From an archaeon (GTDB lineage: Archaea > Nanobdellota > Nanobdellia > Woesearchaeales > GW2011-AR9): a stretch of DNA of 55,642 bases. Below are positions 31,898-39,074 of this stretch, in pieces. How positions within the stretch are numbered: position 1 is the first letter of the stretch; the number at the start of each line of letters is the position of its first letter. The notes under the pieces were generated by a model, which saw only the letters and a list, made by a program, of their open reading frames with translations, searched no databases and was not told the DNA's origin. The position numbers and the translations under genes are program-made. The stretch is taken from NCBI GenBank assembly GCA_018696395.1, contig JABHQR010000016.1:1-55642 (forward strand). The letters run 5' to 3'.

Positions 31898-33244
31898 ATG
31901 TGGATTAGATTATCGTTTTTACAAAAGAATTTGGTATATGCAATTCCAATTTCTTTAATTTTAGGAGTATTGTTTGGATATTTAATTGATTCTTCAGTTT
32001 TAAAAATATTAATTCTTCCATTAACTATATTAATGATTTATCCTATGATGGTAACTCTGAACATTAAATCTTTGTTCACATATTGTAAACCAAAAACACA
32101 AATATTAATTCAATTAGTTAATTTTATTATTATACCTTTAGTTGGTTTTGGTATTGGATTAGTCTTTTTAAAAAATACCCCTTATTTAGCATATGGGCTT
32201 TTGTTAATAGCTTTACTTCCTACAAGTGGAATGACTATTTCGTGGACTGGATTTGCAAAAGGAAATGTTAATCTTGCTATTAAAACAACAATTATTGGAT
32301 TAATATTAGGTTCATTATTAATGCCTTTTTATACTGCATTTTTTGTAGGTCAAACAATTAGTTTGCCAATCCTTAAAACATTTATTGAACTTGGAAAAGT
32401 AATATTTTTACCTTTGTTATTAGGTTTTATTACGCAAATTATTTTAAAAAAGATATATGGTGAGATGCATTTTAATAAAAATATAAAATCAAAATTCCCA
32501 TTATTATCAACTTTAGCAGTTATAGGGATTATTTTTGTTGCTATGGCTTTAAAATCAAAATCAATAATTGCTGATCCATTAGAAGTACTTTATTTATTGA
32601 TTCCATTAATCCTTTTTTATATATTTAATTATTTTTTGACCTCAATTATTGGAAAATATTTTTTATCAAGGGAAGATGCAATAACTCTTGTGTATGGGTC
32701 TGTCATGAGGAATCTTTCAGTTGCTTTAGCAATTGCATTAATTGTTTTTGGAGATAATGGTGTTGAAATTGCATTAATTATTGCTGTTGCTTATGTTATT
32801 CAAGTACAATCTGCCGCATGGTATATTAAATTTTCAGAGAAAGTATTTGGTGTGATCCCAGAAGATGTTATAAAAGATATCGTAGAAGAGGGGCTTTTTG
32901 CTTTACATAATAATTTAACACTATATGATGTGATTAAATTGCTTGATGAAGAACATATTAATTCAGTTGCAATTTTAAATAGAAAAGAAAAGATAGTTGG
33001 ATTAATTACTAGTCAAATAATTATAAATTTATTAGCAGATAATAAATCTCTAAAAACAAAATTAAGTGATATAAAATTACCTACCCCATTACAAATTAAT
33101 GAAAGAACTCCCATTAAAAAAGTTCTTAGTATAATGAAACAAAAACATAAATACAAAGTTTTAGTTATAAATCAAAAAGGAAAAATTTCGGGAGTACTTA
33201 CAAAATCAGAGATTATTAGTAAGTTTGCAGGAGAGATAAAATGA
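31898..33244 (+). CDS. ACR3/BASS-type transporter with C-terminal CBS pair
   Basis: Residues 1-315 hold about ten helices with the BASS/ACR3 pattern: MMVTLNIKSL near 50, LLPTSGMTISWTGFAKGN near 108-125, and SVMRNLSVALAIALIVFG near 269-286. ACR3 members export arsenite or other oxyanions; bile-acid-type members import organic anions. The hallmark ACR3 cysteine is not at the expected position here, so the substrate is open. Residues about 325-448 form two CBS domains, which sense adenine nucleotides. The fusion implies energy-state control. It overlaps the next gene by four bases. Confidence 0.8.
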   Translation: MWIRLSFLQKNLVYAIPISLILGVLFGYLIDSSVLKILILPLTILMIYPMMVTLNIKSLFTYCKPKTQILIQLVNFIIIPLVGFGIGLVFLKNTPYLAYGLLLIALLPTSGMTISWTGFAKGNVNLAIKTTIIGLILGSLLMPFYTAFFVGQTISLPILKTFIELGKVIFLPLLLGFITQIILKKIYGEMHFNKNIKSKFPLLSTLAVIGIIFVAMALKSKSIIADPLEVLYLLIPLILFYIFNYFLTSIIGKYFLSREDAITLVYGSVMRNLSVALAIALIVFGDNGVEIALIIAVAYVIQVQSAAWYIKFSEKVFGVIPEDVIKDIVEEGLFALHNNLTLYDVIKLLDEEHINSVAILNRKEKIVGLITSQIIINLLADNKSLKTKLSDIKLPTPLQINERTPIKKVLSIMKQKHKYKVLVINQKGKISGVLTKSEIISKFAGEIK

Positions 33245-33653: not shown

Positions 33654-34250
33654 ATGAAAAAAAAGATATTCAATGAATTAAAGAAACATTATCCTTTTAC
33701 TTTGTTTGGAGCAATTACAGGAATTATTATAATGATATTATGTTATAAAATTCCTTCAGAAACATCTTATGAAATATTCTATATTTTGCATCCAATCCAT
33801 GTAATACTTAGTGCATTAGTTACTGCTTCAATGTACAAGATTTATGCAAAAAAAGTAAATCCTTTTGTTTTAATTTTGATTGGTTATATGGGTTCAGTTG
33901 GAATTGCTACACTTAGTGATTCAATAATACCTTATATTGCTGAAATAATGTTGGATCTTCCAAATAAAGGAATTCACATTGGATTTATTGAAAAATGGTG
34001 GTTAATTAATCCATTAGCTTTTTTAGGTATAGCAATTGCTTATTTTAATCCAACAACTAAATTTCCTCATGCTGGACATGTATTACTTAGTACTTGGGCA
34101 TCTTTATTTCATGTTATGATTGCATTAGGAACAACATTGAATGTTAGTCAAGCTATTTTAATATTTATTTTCTTATTTATTGCTGTGTTAATACCTTGTT
34201 GTATGAGTGATATTATTTTCCCACTTTTATTTGTAAAGAGGAATCCATGA
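33654..34250 (+). CDS. His/Cys-containing multi-helix membrane protein
   Basis: The 198 residues have about five to six membrane helices. Conserved-looking polar residues lie within or beside them: HPIHVILSA (about 47-55), FPHAGHVLLSTWASLFHVM (about 143-161) and the near-terminal PCCMSDIIFP. Paired His and Cys in the membrane suggest metal or heme binding, or metal transport. I cannot name a family. It lies between the DUF302 gene and the MinD-ferredoxin pair and overlaps the latter by four bases. Confidence 0.65.
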   Translation: MKKKIFNELKKHYPFTLFGAITGIIIMILCYKIPSETSYEIFYILHPIHVILSALVTASMYKIYAKKVNPFVLILIGYMGSVGIATLSDSIIPYIAEIMLDLPNKGIHIGFIEKWWLINPLAFLGIAIAYFNPTTKFPHAGHVLLSTWASLFHVMIALGTTLNVSQAILIFIFLFIAVLIPCCMSDIIFPLLFVKRNP

Positions 34251-35089
34251 TGGTTAAAATAATTGGAATTACAGGAGGAAAAGGAGGAACAGGTAAATCT
34301 ACTGTAGCTACAGCAATTGCAATACAATTATCTAAAAAATATAAAGTATTGCTTGTTGATGCTGATGTTGACTGTCCAAATGATCATTTAATTTTAAATT
34401 TAAAAAGAAAAGAATACGAAATAGTTCAACAAAGAATACCAACATGGAATACAGATAAATGTATCAGCTGTGGTTTATGTGGTACTGTTTGTAAAACAAA
34501 TGCTATTGTTAATATTCCAAATAAAAGTCCTATGTTTATTAGTACCCAATGTAATGGATGTGGTGCTTGTTTTTTTAAATGTCCAGTTAAAGCAATAAGT
34601 TGGACAAATAAAGAGATTGGAAAAATTTATTTTAATAATGAAGATAAAATACACTTTTTATCTGGAGAACTAAAAGAAAAAGAACCAGTTTCAGAATTTA
34701 TTGTTAACTCATTGAATGAAATAATTACTAAAATCTCTCAAAATTATGATTATATTATAATTGATACTGCTGCAGGAACTCATTGTCCAGTAATAGCTGC
34801 ATTAGAAATGTGTGATGAAGTACTTGCTGTTACTGAACCAACACCATTAGGGAAACATGATTTAGAAGTAATATTAAATTTATTAGTTAAGTTAAAAATT
34901 AAATCAAATATAATTTTAAATCGGTCAGACATAGGAGATAAAAAATTTATTGAATTACTTTCTAAAGAGATTAATATAGATATCATCTCTGAAATTCCTT
35001 ATTCAGAAGAAATTGTAAATAATTATGCTAATGGTATCCCTATTGAAAATAAACAAATTAATGAAATTACTAAAAAAATAATAAAATGA
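34247..35089 (+). CDS. MinD-superfamily ATPase with inserted ferredoxin domain (1)
   Basis: A deviant Walker A, GGKGGTGKST, lies at 10-19. Two 4Fe-4S motifs are inserted: C72, C75, C78, C82 and C102, C105, C108, C112. A Walker B-like DYIIIDTAAGTHCPV follows near 168-182. The 280-residue length and order match COG1149-type proteins. ATP hydrolysis is probably coupled to Fe-S chemistry, such as electron transfer or cluster delivery to NifX-like partners. It forms a tandem pair with the next gene, overlapping it by four bases. Confidence 0.9.
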   Translation: MMVKIIGITGGKGGTGKSTVATAIAIQLSKKYKVLLVDADVDCPNDHLILNLKRKEYEIVQQRIPTWNTDKCISCGLCGTVCKTNAIVNIPNKSPMFISTQCNGCGACFFKCPVKAISWTNKEIGKIYFNNEDKIHFLSGELKEKEPVSEFIVNSLNEIITKISQNYDYIIIDTAAGTHCPVIAALEMCDEVLAVTEPTPLGKHDLEVILNLLVKLKIKSNIILNRSDIGDKKFIELLSKEINIDIISEIPYSEEIVNNYANGIPIENKQINEITKKIIK

Positions 35090-35976
35090 AAAAAATAACT
35101 ATATTATCAGGAAAAGGGGGAGTTGGAAAAAGCAGTATTCTAGCTTCTTTAGCAATTACTATTTCAAAAGAAAAAAAAATCATCTGTGCAGATTGTGATG
35201 TAGATGCATCTAACTTAGCATTGGTGTTAGGGGCAGAAAAACAAGAAGAATGGGAAAATTTAACAACAAATAAAGAAGCAGTTTTTGATTTGACTAAATG
35301 TAATTCATGTAAAAAATGTTTTGAAGAATGTTATTTTAAAGCAATTGGCTGGAAAGATGATAAACCATACTTAAAAAATTTTAGTTGTGAAGGTTGTGGC
35401 ACTTGCCAAATAGTTTGTCCACAAAATGCAATATCATTAAAAGAGATTAATAATGCTAAAATGGGCTATTCTAATACAAGATATAAGTTTAAAGTAGTAT
35501 CTGGTCAATTAAATGTTGGAAGTTCAGGTTCAGGAAAAGTAGTTTTTAAAGTTAGAAAAAAAGCTGAAGAATTATTTAACAATTGTGACCTAATGTTAAT
35601 TGATTCAGCTGCTGGGATTGGTTGCCCAGTTATCGCATCAGTTTCTGGAACTGATCATGCAATTATTATTACTGAACCAACACCATCAGGAATATCAGAT
35701 ATGAAAAGAGCATTCAAAGTAGTAAAACATTTTAAAATACCTTGTAGCATAATAATTAATAAATGGGACATTAACGAAATTAATTCAGGAAAAATTGAAG
35801 AGTTTGCTAATTCTAAAAATATTTGTATTATTTCAAAAATACCTTTTGATAAAAAGTTTGCTAAAGCTTTAACAAAAATGATACCAATAATTATTCTTGA
35901 TAAAAATTATGAAAAAATATTTTTAGATATTAAAGAAAAATTGTTTAAAGAGATTTATATAAATGGGAAAATTTAA
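35086..35976 (+). CDS. MinD-superfamily ATPase with inserted ferredoxin domain (2)
   Basis: The 296-residue paralogue has Walker A GKGGVGKSS (9-17) and cluster cysteines C72, C75, C78, C82 and C101, C104, C107, C111. DLMLIDSAAGIGCPVIAS and TEPTPSGISDM follow. Divergence from its neighbour suggests a heterodimer with distinct roles. It overlaps the half-permease gene by 14 bases, so the ATPases and the permease are tightly coupled. Confidence 0.9.
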   Translation: MKKITILSGKGGVGKSSILASLAITISKEKKIICADCDVDASNLALVLGAEKQEEWENLTTNKEAVFDLTKCNSCKKCFEECYFKAIGWKDDKPYLKNFSCEGCGTCQIVCPQNAISLKEINNAKMGYSNTRYKFKVVSGQLNVGSSGSGKVVFKVRKKAEELFNNCDLMLIDSAAGIGCPVIASVSGTDHAIIITEPTPSGISDMKRAFKVVKHFKIPCSIIINKWDINEINSGKIEEFANSKNICIISKIPFDKKFAKALTKMIPIIILDKNYEKIFLDIKEKLFKEIYINGKI

Positions 35977-36382
35977 TGAATCTATCATAAAATCATTGAA
36001 AAGTTTATGGAATGCTTTCCCTATTTTAATTGGAATAATATTATTAATTTCATTGATAAATGTTTTAATACCAAAATCTACTTATTCTTTGATCTTTACT
36101 GGGAATTATATCACTGACTCTTTTGTTGGTGGGATATTAGGTAGTATTCTCGCAGGAAATCCAATTACAAGTTATATTATTGGGGGAGAATTACTTAATG
36201 AAGGAATTAGTTTAATTGCTATTACTGCATTTTTAGTATGTTGGGTTACTGTTGGACTAATTCAACTTCCAGCAGAAATAACAATACTTGGGAAAAAATT
36301 TGCAATCATTAGAAACTTAATTTCATTTATATTTTCAATAGTTATAGCTATAATAACAACAATGGTGGTGAATTTAATTTGA
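35963..36382 (+). CDS. Half-size permease (COG0701/ArsP-like), first half
   Basis: Four hydrophobic helices in 139 residues, with GSILAGNPITSYIIGGELL near 59-77 and VGLIQLPAEITILGKKF near 93-109. The spacing resembles one half of the ArsP/COG0701 permease family, which exports metalloid or organic metal compounds. Full-length members have about eight helices, so this and the next gene probably form one split transporter. It overlaps both neighbours. Confidence 0.65.
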   Translation: MGKFNESIIKSLKSLWNAFPILIGIILLISLINVLIPKSTYSLIFTGNYITDSFVGGILGSILAGNPITSYIIGGELLNEGISLIAITAFLVCWVTVGLIQLPAEITILGKKFAIIRNLISFIFSIVIAIITTMVVNLI

Positions 36383-36867
36383 AAAATAAATCTTCTTGGT
36401 TATTTTTATTAGGGTTAATTATTATTTATTTTATCACATTAATATTTAAACCATCTAAATTTTATGAAGCATTAAGTTATTTTTCAAACATAATGTTAAT
36501 CATATTACCTATATTTATTCTAATTCTAATTTTAATGGTTCTAATAAATTATTTTGTTAAAACAAAAAGATTAATTAAGATTTTAGGTAAAAATTCAGGG
36601 ATTAAAGGATATGTACTTGTTATTATTTCTGGGATTATTTCATCCGGACCTATTTATATCTGGTATCCTTTACTTAAAAATTTAAATGAAAAAGGAATGA
36701 AAAAAGGATTAATTGCAACTTTTTTGTATTGTAGATCAATAAAAATACCTTTATTACCTTTGTTAATATTATATTTTGGATTACCGTTTACAATCATATT
36801 TAATCTATTGATTATAATCGGAGGAATTGCACAAGGAATCATATTTGATATATTTAAAATTGAATAA
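36379..36867 (+). CDS. Half-size permease (COG0701/ArsP-like), second half
   Basis: A TTG start overlaps the previous stop (TTGA), so it is coupled. The 162 residues include about four helices and the characteristic SGIISSGPIYIWYPLLKNL with a downstream YCRSIKIPLLPLLILYFG. It completes the eight-helix set with the preceding gene. The single Cys in YCRS is the only one in the pair's membrane region. The last gene before repeat copy C. Confidence 0.65.
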   Translation: MKNKSSWLFLLGLIIIYFITLIFKPSKFYEALSYFSNIMLIILPIFILILILMVLINYFVKTKRLIKILGKNSGIKGYVLVIISGIISSGPIYIWYPLLKNLNEKGMKKGLIATFLYCRSIKIPLLPLLILYFGLPFTIIFNLLIIIGGIAQGIIFDIFKIE

Positions 36868-36974: not shown

Positions 36975-37022
36975 TGTTTAAATTAGAATAAAATAATCTT
37001 TTTTTATAAAAATCGAAAGATT

Positions 37023-37054
37023 CATATATCAACATATCAACAAAGAGTGATATG
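37023..37054 (+). promoter_or_regulatory. ArsR-type operator candidate overlapping the promoter and start codon
   Basis: Perfect dyad CATATCA (37033-37039) and TGATATG (37048-37054) separated by eight bases; the right arm contains the start codon. An extra TCATATATCA at 37022-37031 is a near-copy of the left arm and overlaps a TATA-like sequence. This is where an autorepressing ArsR protein would bind. Confidence 0.55.
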
Positions 37055-37585
37055 AACAGAAAACAAAATTTAAAATTATTAAAAGCATTATCTGAAGAAA
37101 CAAGATACAGGATTATTGAAGTTTTATTAAAAGGAGAATTTTGCGCTTGTAAAATTCCTACATTAATTAGAAGAACACAATCTAATACTTCTATGCATCT
37201 TTCAAAACTAACAGATGTTGGGATTGTACAATTTCGAAAAGTTGGAAAAACTTCGCTATATTCAATTAAAGAAGAATTAGTATATGAAATATTCAAAATA
37301 TTGGGTCATGGAGTCAATATAAAAACAAAACAACAGGGAAAGAAGACTATGAAAATTGAATTATTAGAAACTGGATGTTCAACTTGTATTGGACTTGAAG
37401 ATAATGTTAGAACTGCATTAGAAAGATCTGGTAAGAATGCTGAGATAATTATTATTAATGAATTTAATGATATAATAAAAAAAGGTGTTATGTCAATACC
37501 CGCAATCATTATTGATGGAAAAATTAAATCATCAGGTAAGGTTGTTAGCTCTGAGATAATTGAGGGATGGTTAAATGAAAAATAA
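37052..37585 (+). CDS. ArsR-type regulator fused to a thioredoxin-like disulfide domain
   Basis: Residues 1-90 are an ArsR-family winged helix (LLKALSEETRYRIIEVLLKGEFCAC, with C31 and C33 as candidate metal ligands, then RRTQSNTSMHLSKL). Residues about 100-177 match the small TM0996/redox-active-disulfide-protein-2 family: MKIELLETGCSTC (C109, C112) and MSIPAIIIDGKI with the cis-Pro. In other ars-like operons these are two proteins; here they are one open frame, so a single molecule may sense metal and thiol redox state. An internal Met at 100 could also give a free redox protein. Confidence 0.85.
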   Translation: MNRKQNLKLLKALSEETRYRIIEVLLKGEFCACKIPTLIRRTQSNTSMHLSKLTDVGIVQFRKVGKTSLYSIKEELVYEIFKILGHGVNIKTKQQGKKTMKIELLETGCSTCIGLEDNVRTALERSGKNAEIIIINEFNDIIKKGVMSIPAIIIDGKIKSSGKVVSSEIIEGWLNEK

Positions 37586-38026
37586 TCATGTTCTATTCTG
37601 TTTTGGTCTAATACTTATACTTTTTTTAGCAGGTTGCTCAAATAATTTAACAGGCGAGGTCACATTAGAAACTGAAGAAAATTATATTAAAAAATAGAAG
37701 TATACCACTTTCACAGTAATAACCAATGTAATGTATGCAAAACAATTGGTGCAAATTTGGATGAAACTATAGAAAGATATTTTTTAGATGAAGTTAATTC
37801 TGGAAAAATAATTTATGGCCATATTAATGTTCAAGATCCCACAAATAGTGAAATAACTGAAAGATATGGTGCTACTGGAACATCTCTTTGGATAGGGGTT
37901 TATGATATAAATGGATTTTATGCTGAAAATGATCAATCAATTTGGTATAAACTGAATGACAAAGAAGAATTCATAGATTATTTGAAAAATCTTATTGAAA
38001 AACGACTATCTGGAGAGATGAATTAA
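37575..38026 (+). CDS. ArsF-like thioredoxin-fold lipoprotein, frameshifted
   Basis: The first 40 codons from ATG 37575 encode a lipoprotein signal (LILILFLAGC) and stop at TAG 37695. In the -1 frame, immediately after the A6 run at 37689-37694, the sequence continues IEVYHFHSNNQCNVCKTIG and runs to 38026 with INVQDPTNSEITERYG, a pattern of the family NCBI calls nitroreductase subunit ArsF. The combined protein would be about 150 residues with CNVC at about 52-55. One extra A in the homopolymer would join the frames, so it is a sequencing error, real mutation or slippage site. It overlaps the ArsR gene by 11 bases. Confidence 0.75.
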
Positions 38027-38027
38027 T

Positions 38028-38738
38028 ATGACATTTATGGGTTTTATGGAGTTAATGGGTAAAAGTAATATTCCCATTCTAGCTGCTTTTTTTATCGGTT
38101 TAATGAATGCTATTAGTCCTTGTCCTTTAGCTGCAAATATTACTGCTATAGCTTATATTAGCAAAAAAATTGATAATAGTAAACATACAATTATAGTGGG
38201 ATTATTGTACACTTTTGGTAGAATGTTTACTTATGTTTTAATAGCATCACTTATTATCTGGTTTGGTCTAAATATTCAAATAACTTCTCTAACTCTTCAA
38301 AAATATGGTGATAAAATATTAGGGCCTTTTCTAATTATCCTAGGGTTAATCATGTTAGATATTATAAAATTTGGATTTTTCAAGAAGAGTGATAAATTCA
38401 ACAAATTTAAAGAAAAACTTTCAACTAAAGGATATTTTGGAAGTTTTATGCTTGGTGCAATCTTAGCATTAGCATTTTGTCCATTTAGTGCAGTGTTATT
38501 TTTTGGTATGCTAATACCTCTTGCAATTAGTGCAGGTGATGGAATTATAATCCCTTCAATATTTGCTATAGCAACAGGATTACCAGTCATAATATTTTCA
38601 TTCATTTTAGTTTATAGTATTAATAAACTCGGAACAGTAATGAACTATGTTAATAATTTTGAGAAAATTGTAAGGAAATCTACTGCAATAATAATAATTC
38701 TAATTGGATTATATTATGTGTATAAATTGTTTTTGTGA
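38028..38738 (+). CDS. ArsG-family/CcdA-like transporter
   Basis: A 236-residue, six-helix protein with cysteines in ISPCPLAANI (C32) and AFCPFSAVLFFG (C151), the CcdA-type pair. The SPCPLAANITAIAYI start matches the family NCBI labels aromatic arsenical efflux permease ArsG. In this setting it more likely delivers electrons to the ArsF-like lipoprotein encoded one base upstream, though transport has been proposed for the family. Operon with ArsR fusion, ArsF-like and cupin genes. Confidence 0.8.
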   Translation: MTFMGFMELMGKSNIPILAAFFIGLMNAISPCPLAANITAIAYISKKIDNSKHTIIVGLLYTFGRMFTYVLIASLIIWFGLNIQITSLTLQKYGDKILGPFLIILGLIMLDIIKFGFFKKSDKFNKFKEKLSTKGYFGSFMLGAILALAFCPFSAVLFFGMLIPLAISAGDGIIIPSIFAIATGLPVIIFSFILVYSINKLGTVMNYVNNFEKIVRKSTAIIIILIGLYYVYKLFL

Positions 38739-38748
38739 GGTACTAAAA

Positions 38749-39060
38749 ATGAAAAATAAATGGGAAGATGTAAGTGAAATGATTGACTATTCTAAAGGTG
38801 GAATAATAAGTAAAGTTATTGAAAAAAACGATATTAGTGATGTGACTCTTTTTTGTATGTCAAAAGAAACTGAGATCTCTACACACACATCAACAAAAGC
38901 AGGTTATGTTTATGTTGTTGAAGGTAATGGCATATTTAATCTTGAAGGTGAAGAGATTCATATTAAGCCAGGTATATTAATATTCATGAGTGCAAATGCC
39001 AAACATTCATTGAGTGCAAAAGAAGATACGTCATTTATTTTAATTTTAAATAAAATCTAG
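38749..39060 (+). CDS. Small cupin protein
   Basis: The ATG at 38749 is preceded by GAGG at a suitable distance; 103 residues. The cupin pattern is clear: ISTHTSTKAGYVYVVEGNGIFNLEGE (motif one) and IKPGILIFMSANAKHSL (motif two). Metal ligands of motif one are partly replaced (only one His, in STHTST), so it may bind metal or a small ligand, not catalyse. It ends the arsR-fusion operon, just before repeat copy D. Confidence 0.8.
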   Translation: MKNKWEDVSEMIDYSKGGIISKVIEKNDISDVTLFCMSKETEISTHTSTKAGYVYVVEGNGIFNLEGEEIHIKPGILIFMSANAKHSLSAKEDTSFILILNKI

Positions 39061-39074
39061 CAATTTACTAAAAA

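Follow-up and report, generated by a model that had tools for sequence, protein, structure and literature searches.

Architecture of the fused gene and its cassette

The window analyzed here, the whole 55,642-nucleotide stretch of contig JABHQR010000016.1, carries a 177-amino-acid arsR-arsE fusion gene at positions 37052 to 37585 (this gene and the other parts of its cassette lie on the forward strand) that reads from ATG to stop in a single frame and has a homologue at L065:3001-3534. As an earlier note on this DNA had claimed, an ArsR with cysteines C31 and C33 runs without a stop into a domain with CSTC at residues 109 to 112. The N-terminal ArsR/SmtB winged-helix domain (amino acids 1 to 84; 37052 to 37303) matches the ArsR/SmtB metalloregulator model NF033788 over amino acids 8 to 80 (72.0 bits; cutoff, 55) as well as PF01022 (HTH_5; 35.1 bits; cutoff, 22), and Foldseek matched its fold to the ArsR-family repressors CadC, NolR, and HlyU. 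In the alignment, its CxC metal-binding cysteines, C31-A-C33, precede the recognition helix and are kept in relatives.

The C-terminal ArsE/MTH895 thioredoxin-like domain (amino acids 100 to 177; 37349 to 37582) contains the CxxC pair C109-S-T-C112 and SIPAI at the cis-Pro position, and PF13192 (Thioredoxin_3) matches amino acids 100 to 174. The earlier label "thioredoxin-like" can be narrowed to ArsE; amino acids 101 to 175 match TIGR00412 (MTH895/ArsE family) with 69.8 bits (cutoff, 62). This half is related to MTH895 (1ILO) by both sequence (E value, 1.5e-11) and fold (Foldseek TM score, 0.83 over the target); the ArsE domain is common to the two, whereas MTH895 is a free-standing protein of 77 amino acids. 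Since the domain is here part of a 177-amino-acid frame and not a free-standing ArsE of about 77 amino acids, our claim is for an ArsE domain rather than a free ArsE. Between the two halves lies a linker (amino acids 85 to 99; 37304 to 37348) with predicted disorder at residues 87 to 98. The monomer structure model, with two confident domains, pLDDT below 50 for residues 87 to 98, and an overall pTM of 0.48, shows two separate domains on a floppy linker without a confident mutual arrangement.

Downstream of the fusion gene follow arsF, arsG, and a cupin gene, in that order. The 5' part of arsF (37575 to 37697) has a lipobox-like FLAGC and is cut short by a stop codon that follows six consecutive A. 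The 3' part of the gene (37695 to 38026) continues in a different frame, in which the sequence from 37757 on matches NF040494 with 65 bits. The arsG gene (38028 to 38738) encodes a CcdA/DsbD-type permease that matches the equivalog model NF040495 with 283 bits (cutoff, 200), and the final gene of the conserved cassette (38746 to 39060; PF07883) encodes a small cupin protein that is 83% identical in L065. With the ArsF and ArsG of an arsEFG operon encoded directly downstream, the CxxC domain is the E of such an operon. Operons of the arsR-arsE-arsF-arsG type are known for resistance to organoarsenicals (nitro and amino aromatic arsenicals). The window arsF is broken by a one-base frameshift in the six-A run at 37689 to 37694, whereas L065 has an intact arsF of 149 amino acids and the gene is also intact in other relatives. 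This frameshift may be a real mutation, a sequencing error, or programmed slippage, and the window copy of the cassette may be decaying. The full-length fusion query and TIGR00412 each gave one match in the genome of the window, both in the fusion gene, so no separate ArsE of the TIGR00412 family can cover for the fusion.

Several other genes lie upstream of the fusion gene. Positions 31898 to 33244 encode an Acr3/SBF-family transporter with two C-terminal CBS domains, and a gene for a DUF302 protein is also found upstream. Beside the arsenic genes, 34247 to 35089 and 35086 to 35976 encode a tandem pair of MinD/ParA-type ATPases, both of which have a 4Fe-4S ferredoxin domain inserted. Two adjacent, overlapping half-size ArsP_1-like permease genes (35963 to 36382 and 36379 to 36867) each align, with scores under the Pfam cutoff, to one and the same N-terminal portion of the model and possibly encode a split heteromeric permease; a similar pair of short ORFs occurs in L035 (G060).

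Predicted operator and promoter

The dyad that the earlier note had placed over the start codon is present as CATATCA-N8-TGATATG, a predicted 22-bp operator at 37033 to 37054 that matches exactly and extends over the ATG at 37052 to 37054. The operator span first proposed, 37023 to 37054, holds this dyad but also takes in part of a TATA-like element predicted from the upstream alignment about 25 nucleotides before the ATG (37018 to 37029). No other exact match to the dyad is present in the window or anywhere else in the 1.38-Mb genome. The next best genomic site, located within a coding gene and differing at one position, was rejected as a second operator, and we therefore claim no wider regulon.

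In the upstream alignment, most related arsR genes carry the dyad shortly before their start, best recognized as CATATCAAT..ATTGATATG or, with reversed polarity, as CATATTGAT..ATCAATATG, and an A/T-rich TATA-like sequence precedes it. Such a layout suggests that the mRNA is leaderless and that the operator separates the promoter from the ATG. Against the consensus ATCAAN6TTGAT, quoted in PMC9137774 for ArsR sites of bacteria, the window core, ATCAA-CAAAGA-GTGAT, has one mismatch, and L065 has none. Sites that fit the core with one mismatch are no rarer in the A/T-rich window than chance predicts, so the case for the operator rests on position and conservation.

The second fusion genome and the origin of the fusion

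When the same architecture was sought in other genomes, as had been proposed, it was found once, in genome G467 (archaeon SI047_bin70; JABHYY010000034.1), which belongs to the same class as the genome of the window and to a different order and family. The orthologue is likewise a fusion of 177 amino acids, 80% identical without gap or stop, and both domain HMMs exceed their cutoffs in it. The conserved cassette (37023 to 39065 in the window; L067:9737-11768) aligns by blastn over 2.04 kb (2046 columns) with 84% DNA identity; the similarity sets in shortly upstream of the operator and breaks off beyond the cupin gene. Because ArsG is 90% identical between the two genomes, compared with 61% for ribosomal protein L15e (named from its sequence), and because the flanking genes differ, horizontal transfer of the cassette is likely, in a comparison that rests on this one housekeeping protein. 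Judged by synteny, the two fusion genomes hold one transferred cassette and represent a single evolutionary event. A very similar YdeI-like protein is encoded elsewhere in the genome of the window (L097:1124-1729, contig C24 of G000) and beside the arsRE cassette of G467 (L065:5206-5787), and its gene is possibly a second one shared by transfer. None of the plasmid records covered 80% of the fusion or matched its ArsE part, and no match to the fusion was found among viral contigs.

The window and orthologue fusion genes have diverged to an overall dS of 0.73. With dN/dS values at that distance of 0.11 for ArsR and 0.155 for ArsE, both halves have been under purifying selection after long divergence; the 15-codon linker, at 0.40, is weakly constrained by this measure. 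Under neutrality, the linker would have stayed open with a probability of about 0.32 if only stops are counted; an assumed rate of 0.05 indels per substitution lowers the probability of an open, indel-free linker to about 0.06. The kept frame is thus a suggestive sign of selection for the fused form, not significant alone.

The earlier statement that the two parts are normally separate proteins is borne out by all other relatives checked, in which arsR and arsE are separate and often overlap or abut; relatives have the genes of the operon unfused but in the same order. The loci compared contain 28 pairings of arsR with arsE on one strand no more than 2 kb apart. Only two of them, those of the window and its orthologue, are fused, while in about eight the genes overlap by four bases (ATGA or GTGA) and in two, those of G010 and G333, the arsE ATG follows the arsR stop without a gap. 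Of the 15 TIGR00412 matches over the cutoff in the class scan, 13 were in frames of 73 to 117 amino acids, and the other two were the fusion and its orthologue; the genomes searched overlap between scans. Given that arsR and arsE overlap or abut in relatives, one small mutation would be enough to fuse them. At the window junction, the arsE ATG stands between an ACT codon and an A (ATGA overlap, 37349 to 37352), and the data fit either loss of an abutting arsR stop or a one-base slip past an overlapping TGA as the single step.

Further candidates for fusion were rejected. An apparent second fusion in G154 (open frame 207) consists of separate ORFs 108 bp apart; in G010, G333, and G523, the match to the full fusion is interrupted by stops and represents adjacent separate genes; and the ArsE-like gene of a member of the Desulfobacteraceae (L066) is free-standing, with no arsR fused to it. 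Several unfused ArsR relatives (L002, L003, L059, and L064) have a cysteine-rich C-terminal tail, e.g., KKCCCMEG, which is absent from the fused proteins.

Function of the fused protein and its relation to known ars systems

The gene probably encodes a bifunctional ArsR-ArsE, the first product of a mobile arsR-arsE-arsF-arsG-cupin arsenic resistance cassette that represses itself and is induced by arsenicals. Around the observed architecture, two-genome conservation, operon context, and operator sequence, we infer dimerization, an arsenical ligand, repression, ArsE chemistry, and dual products. The ArsR half would dimerize on the 22-bp dyad, which is flanked by the TATA-like region on one side and the start codon on the other, and so block its own operon until binding of an inorganic or aromatic trivalent arsenical at C31/C33 released it from the DNA. 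The ArsE half, held on the flexible linker, would use its CSTC pair to run the thiol-redox step of ArsEFG detoxification, in which ArsF and the ArsG permease would be its partners. Between tightly packed genes, the fusion would have arisen when arsR lost its stop or the frame slipped by one base past the ATGA overlap, and with the internal start codon of arsE retained, some free ArsE could also be made. Since the CxxC domain is the operon's own ArsE, a catalytic or carrier role is a simpler reading than sensing.

Met100 aligns with the first residue of free-standing ArsE, and the orthologue has the arrangement AAAGGAGG-CATAAGATT-ATG, in which AAAGGAGG is a perfect Shine-Dalgarno sequence 9 nucleotides before the same ATG in a region where the frequency of AGGAGG is about 0.37 per kb. 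The candidate start in the window (37331 to 37351) has a weak purine-rich GGGAAAGAAG followed by ACT-ATG, a poor ribosome-binding site. Free ArsE may thus also be made, more probably in the orthologue. The orthologue's Shine-Dalgarno sequence and the weakly conserved linker would suit a nested gene, in which readthrough is incidental, the working ArsE starts at the internal ATG at 37349, and the ArsE tail of ArsR does little. We think this unlikely, as the window has only the weak purine tract and neither genome has acquired a stop or an indel in the frame at the dS given above, although the neutral probability of this under the assumed indel rate is only suggestive.

More doubtful is an integrated sensor of metal binding and thiol state, as suggested in the earlier note: the CSTC pair would feed thiol or arsenical state, for example as electrons or arsenic, to C31/C33, and DNA binding would depend on both. 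Thiol oxidation by diamide, like arsenite, frees Paracoccus ArsR from DNA (PMC9137774), an ArsR not reported with a CxxC partner domain (PMC9137774), and the cysteine-rich ArsR tail of several relatives sits where the fusion has ArsE. Against such a sensor stand the disordered linker, the low pTM with no confident domain arrangement, and the role that ArsE already has in the operon; moreover, the close unfused ArsR proteins of L056, L057, and L058 have no tail cysteines, so none seems needed. Still more doubtful is ArsE as a regulatory module, with CSTC handing arsenical or reducing equivalents to C31/C33. In that case the repressor would read both arsenical load and ArsEFG turnover, and how much free enzyme accompanies the fused sensor would depend on the internal start. 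The weakest alternative, a frameshift or assembly error at about 37310 to 37350, which the earlier note had named as a finding that would refute the fusion, is very improbable, for although one false indel at the ATGA overlap could make the fusion and arsF just downstream appears to have slipped by one base in its A run, the same in-frame fusion without a relative indel stands in a separately assembled genome, and the idea was rejected as largely refuted by this orthologue.

Several known systems come close to the bifunctional ArsR-ArsE that we favor. Operons of the arsEFG type were reportedly described by Chen, Zhang, and Rosen in 2019; the ArsE, ArsF, and ArsG families are present in order here too, whereas in the window ArsE is fused to ArsR, arsF is frameshifted, and the host is an archaeon. 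Redox partner genes of the same kinds occur in described ars operons, where they are separate genes, mostly accompanying arsC. Repressors fused to an enzyme are known as ArsR-ArsC in Leptospirillum ferriphilum, Microbacterium, and Sinorhizobium (PMC6205960), which likewise join a repressor to an effector of its own ars operon, although there the effector is arsenate reductase and the hosts are bacteria. ArsR-M, an ArsR-methyltransferase of Brevundimonas sp. M20, is bifunctional and binds its own promoter (PMC10190100); it too combines a repressor with an arsenic enzyme, but the effector is a methyltransferase and the gene sits in a met operon. Our full-text literature search, with subscription papers outside its scope, found no paper on an ArsR-ArsE or ArsR-thioredoxin fusion. 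As repressors fused to enzymes of their own operons are already known, we regard the ArsR-ArsE fusion as a genuine but modest variation.

With this fusion, ArsE becomes one of the few ars effectors found in one chain with their own repressor, and the arsEFG system is placed in small archaea as a transferable cassette. The locus also ties an archaeal ArsR subgroup to an operator motif published for bacterial ArsR proteins, and it offers a compact test case for whether an operon's enzyme can feed back directly on its own repressor.
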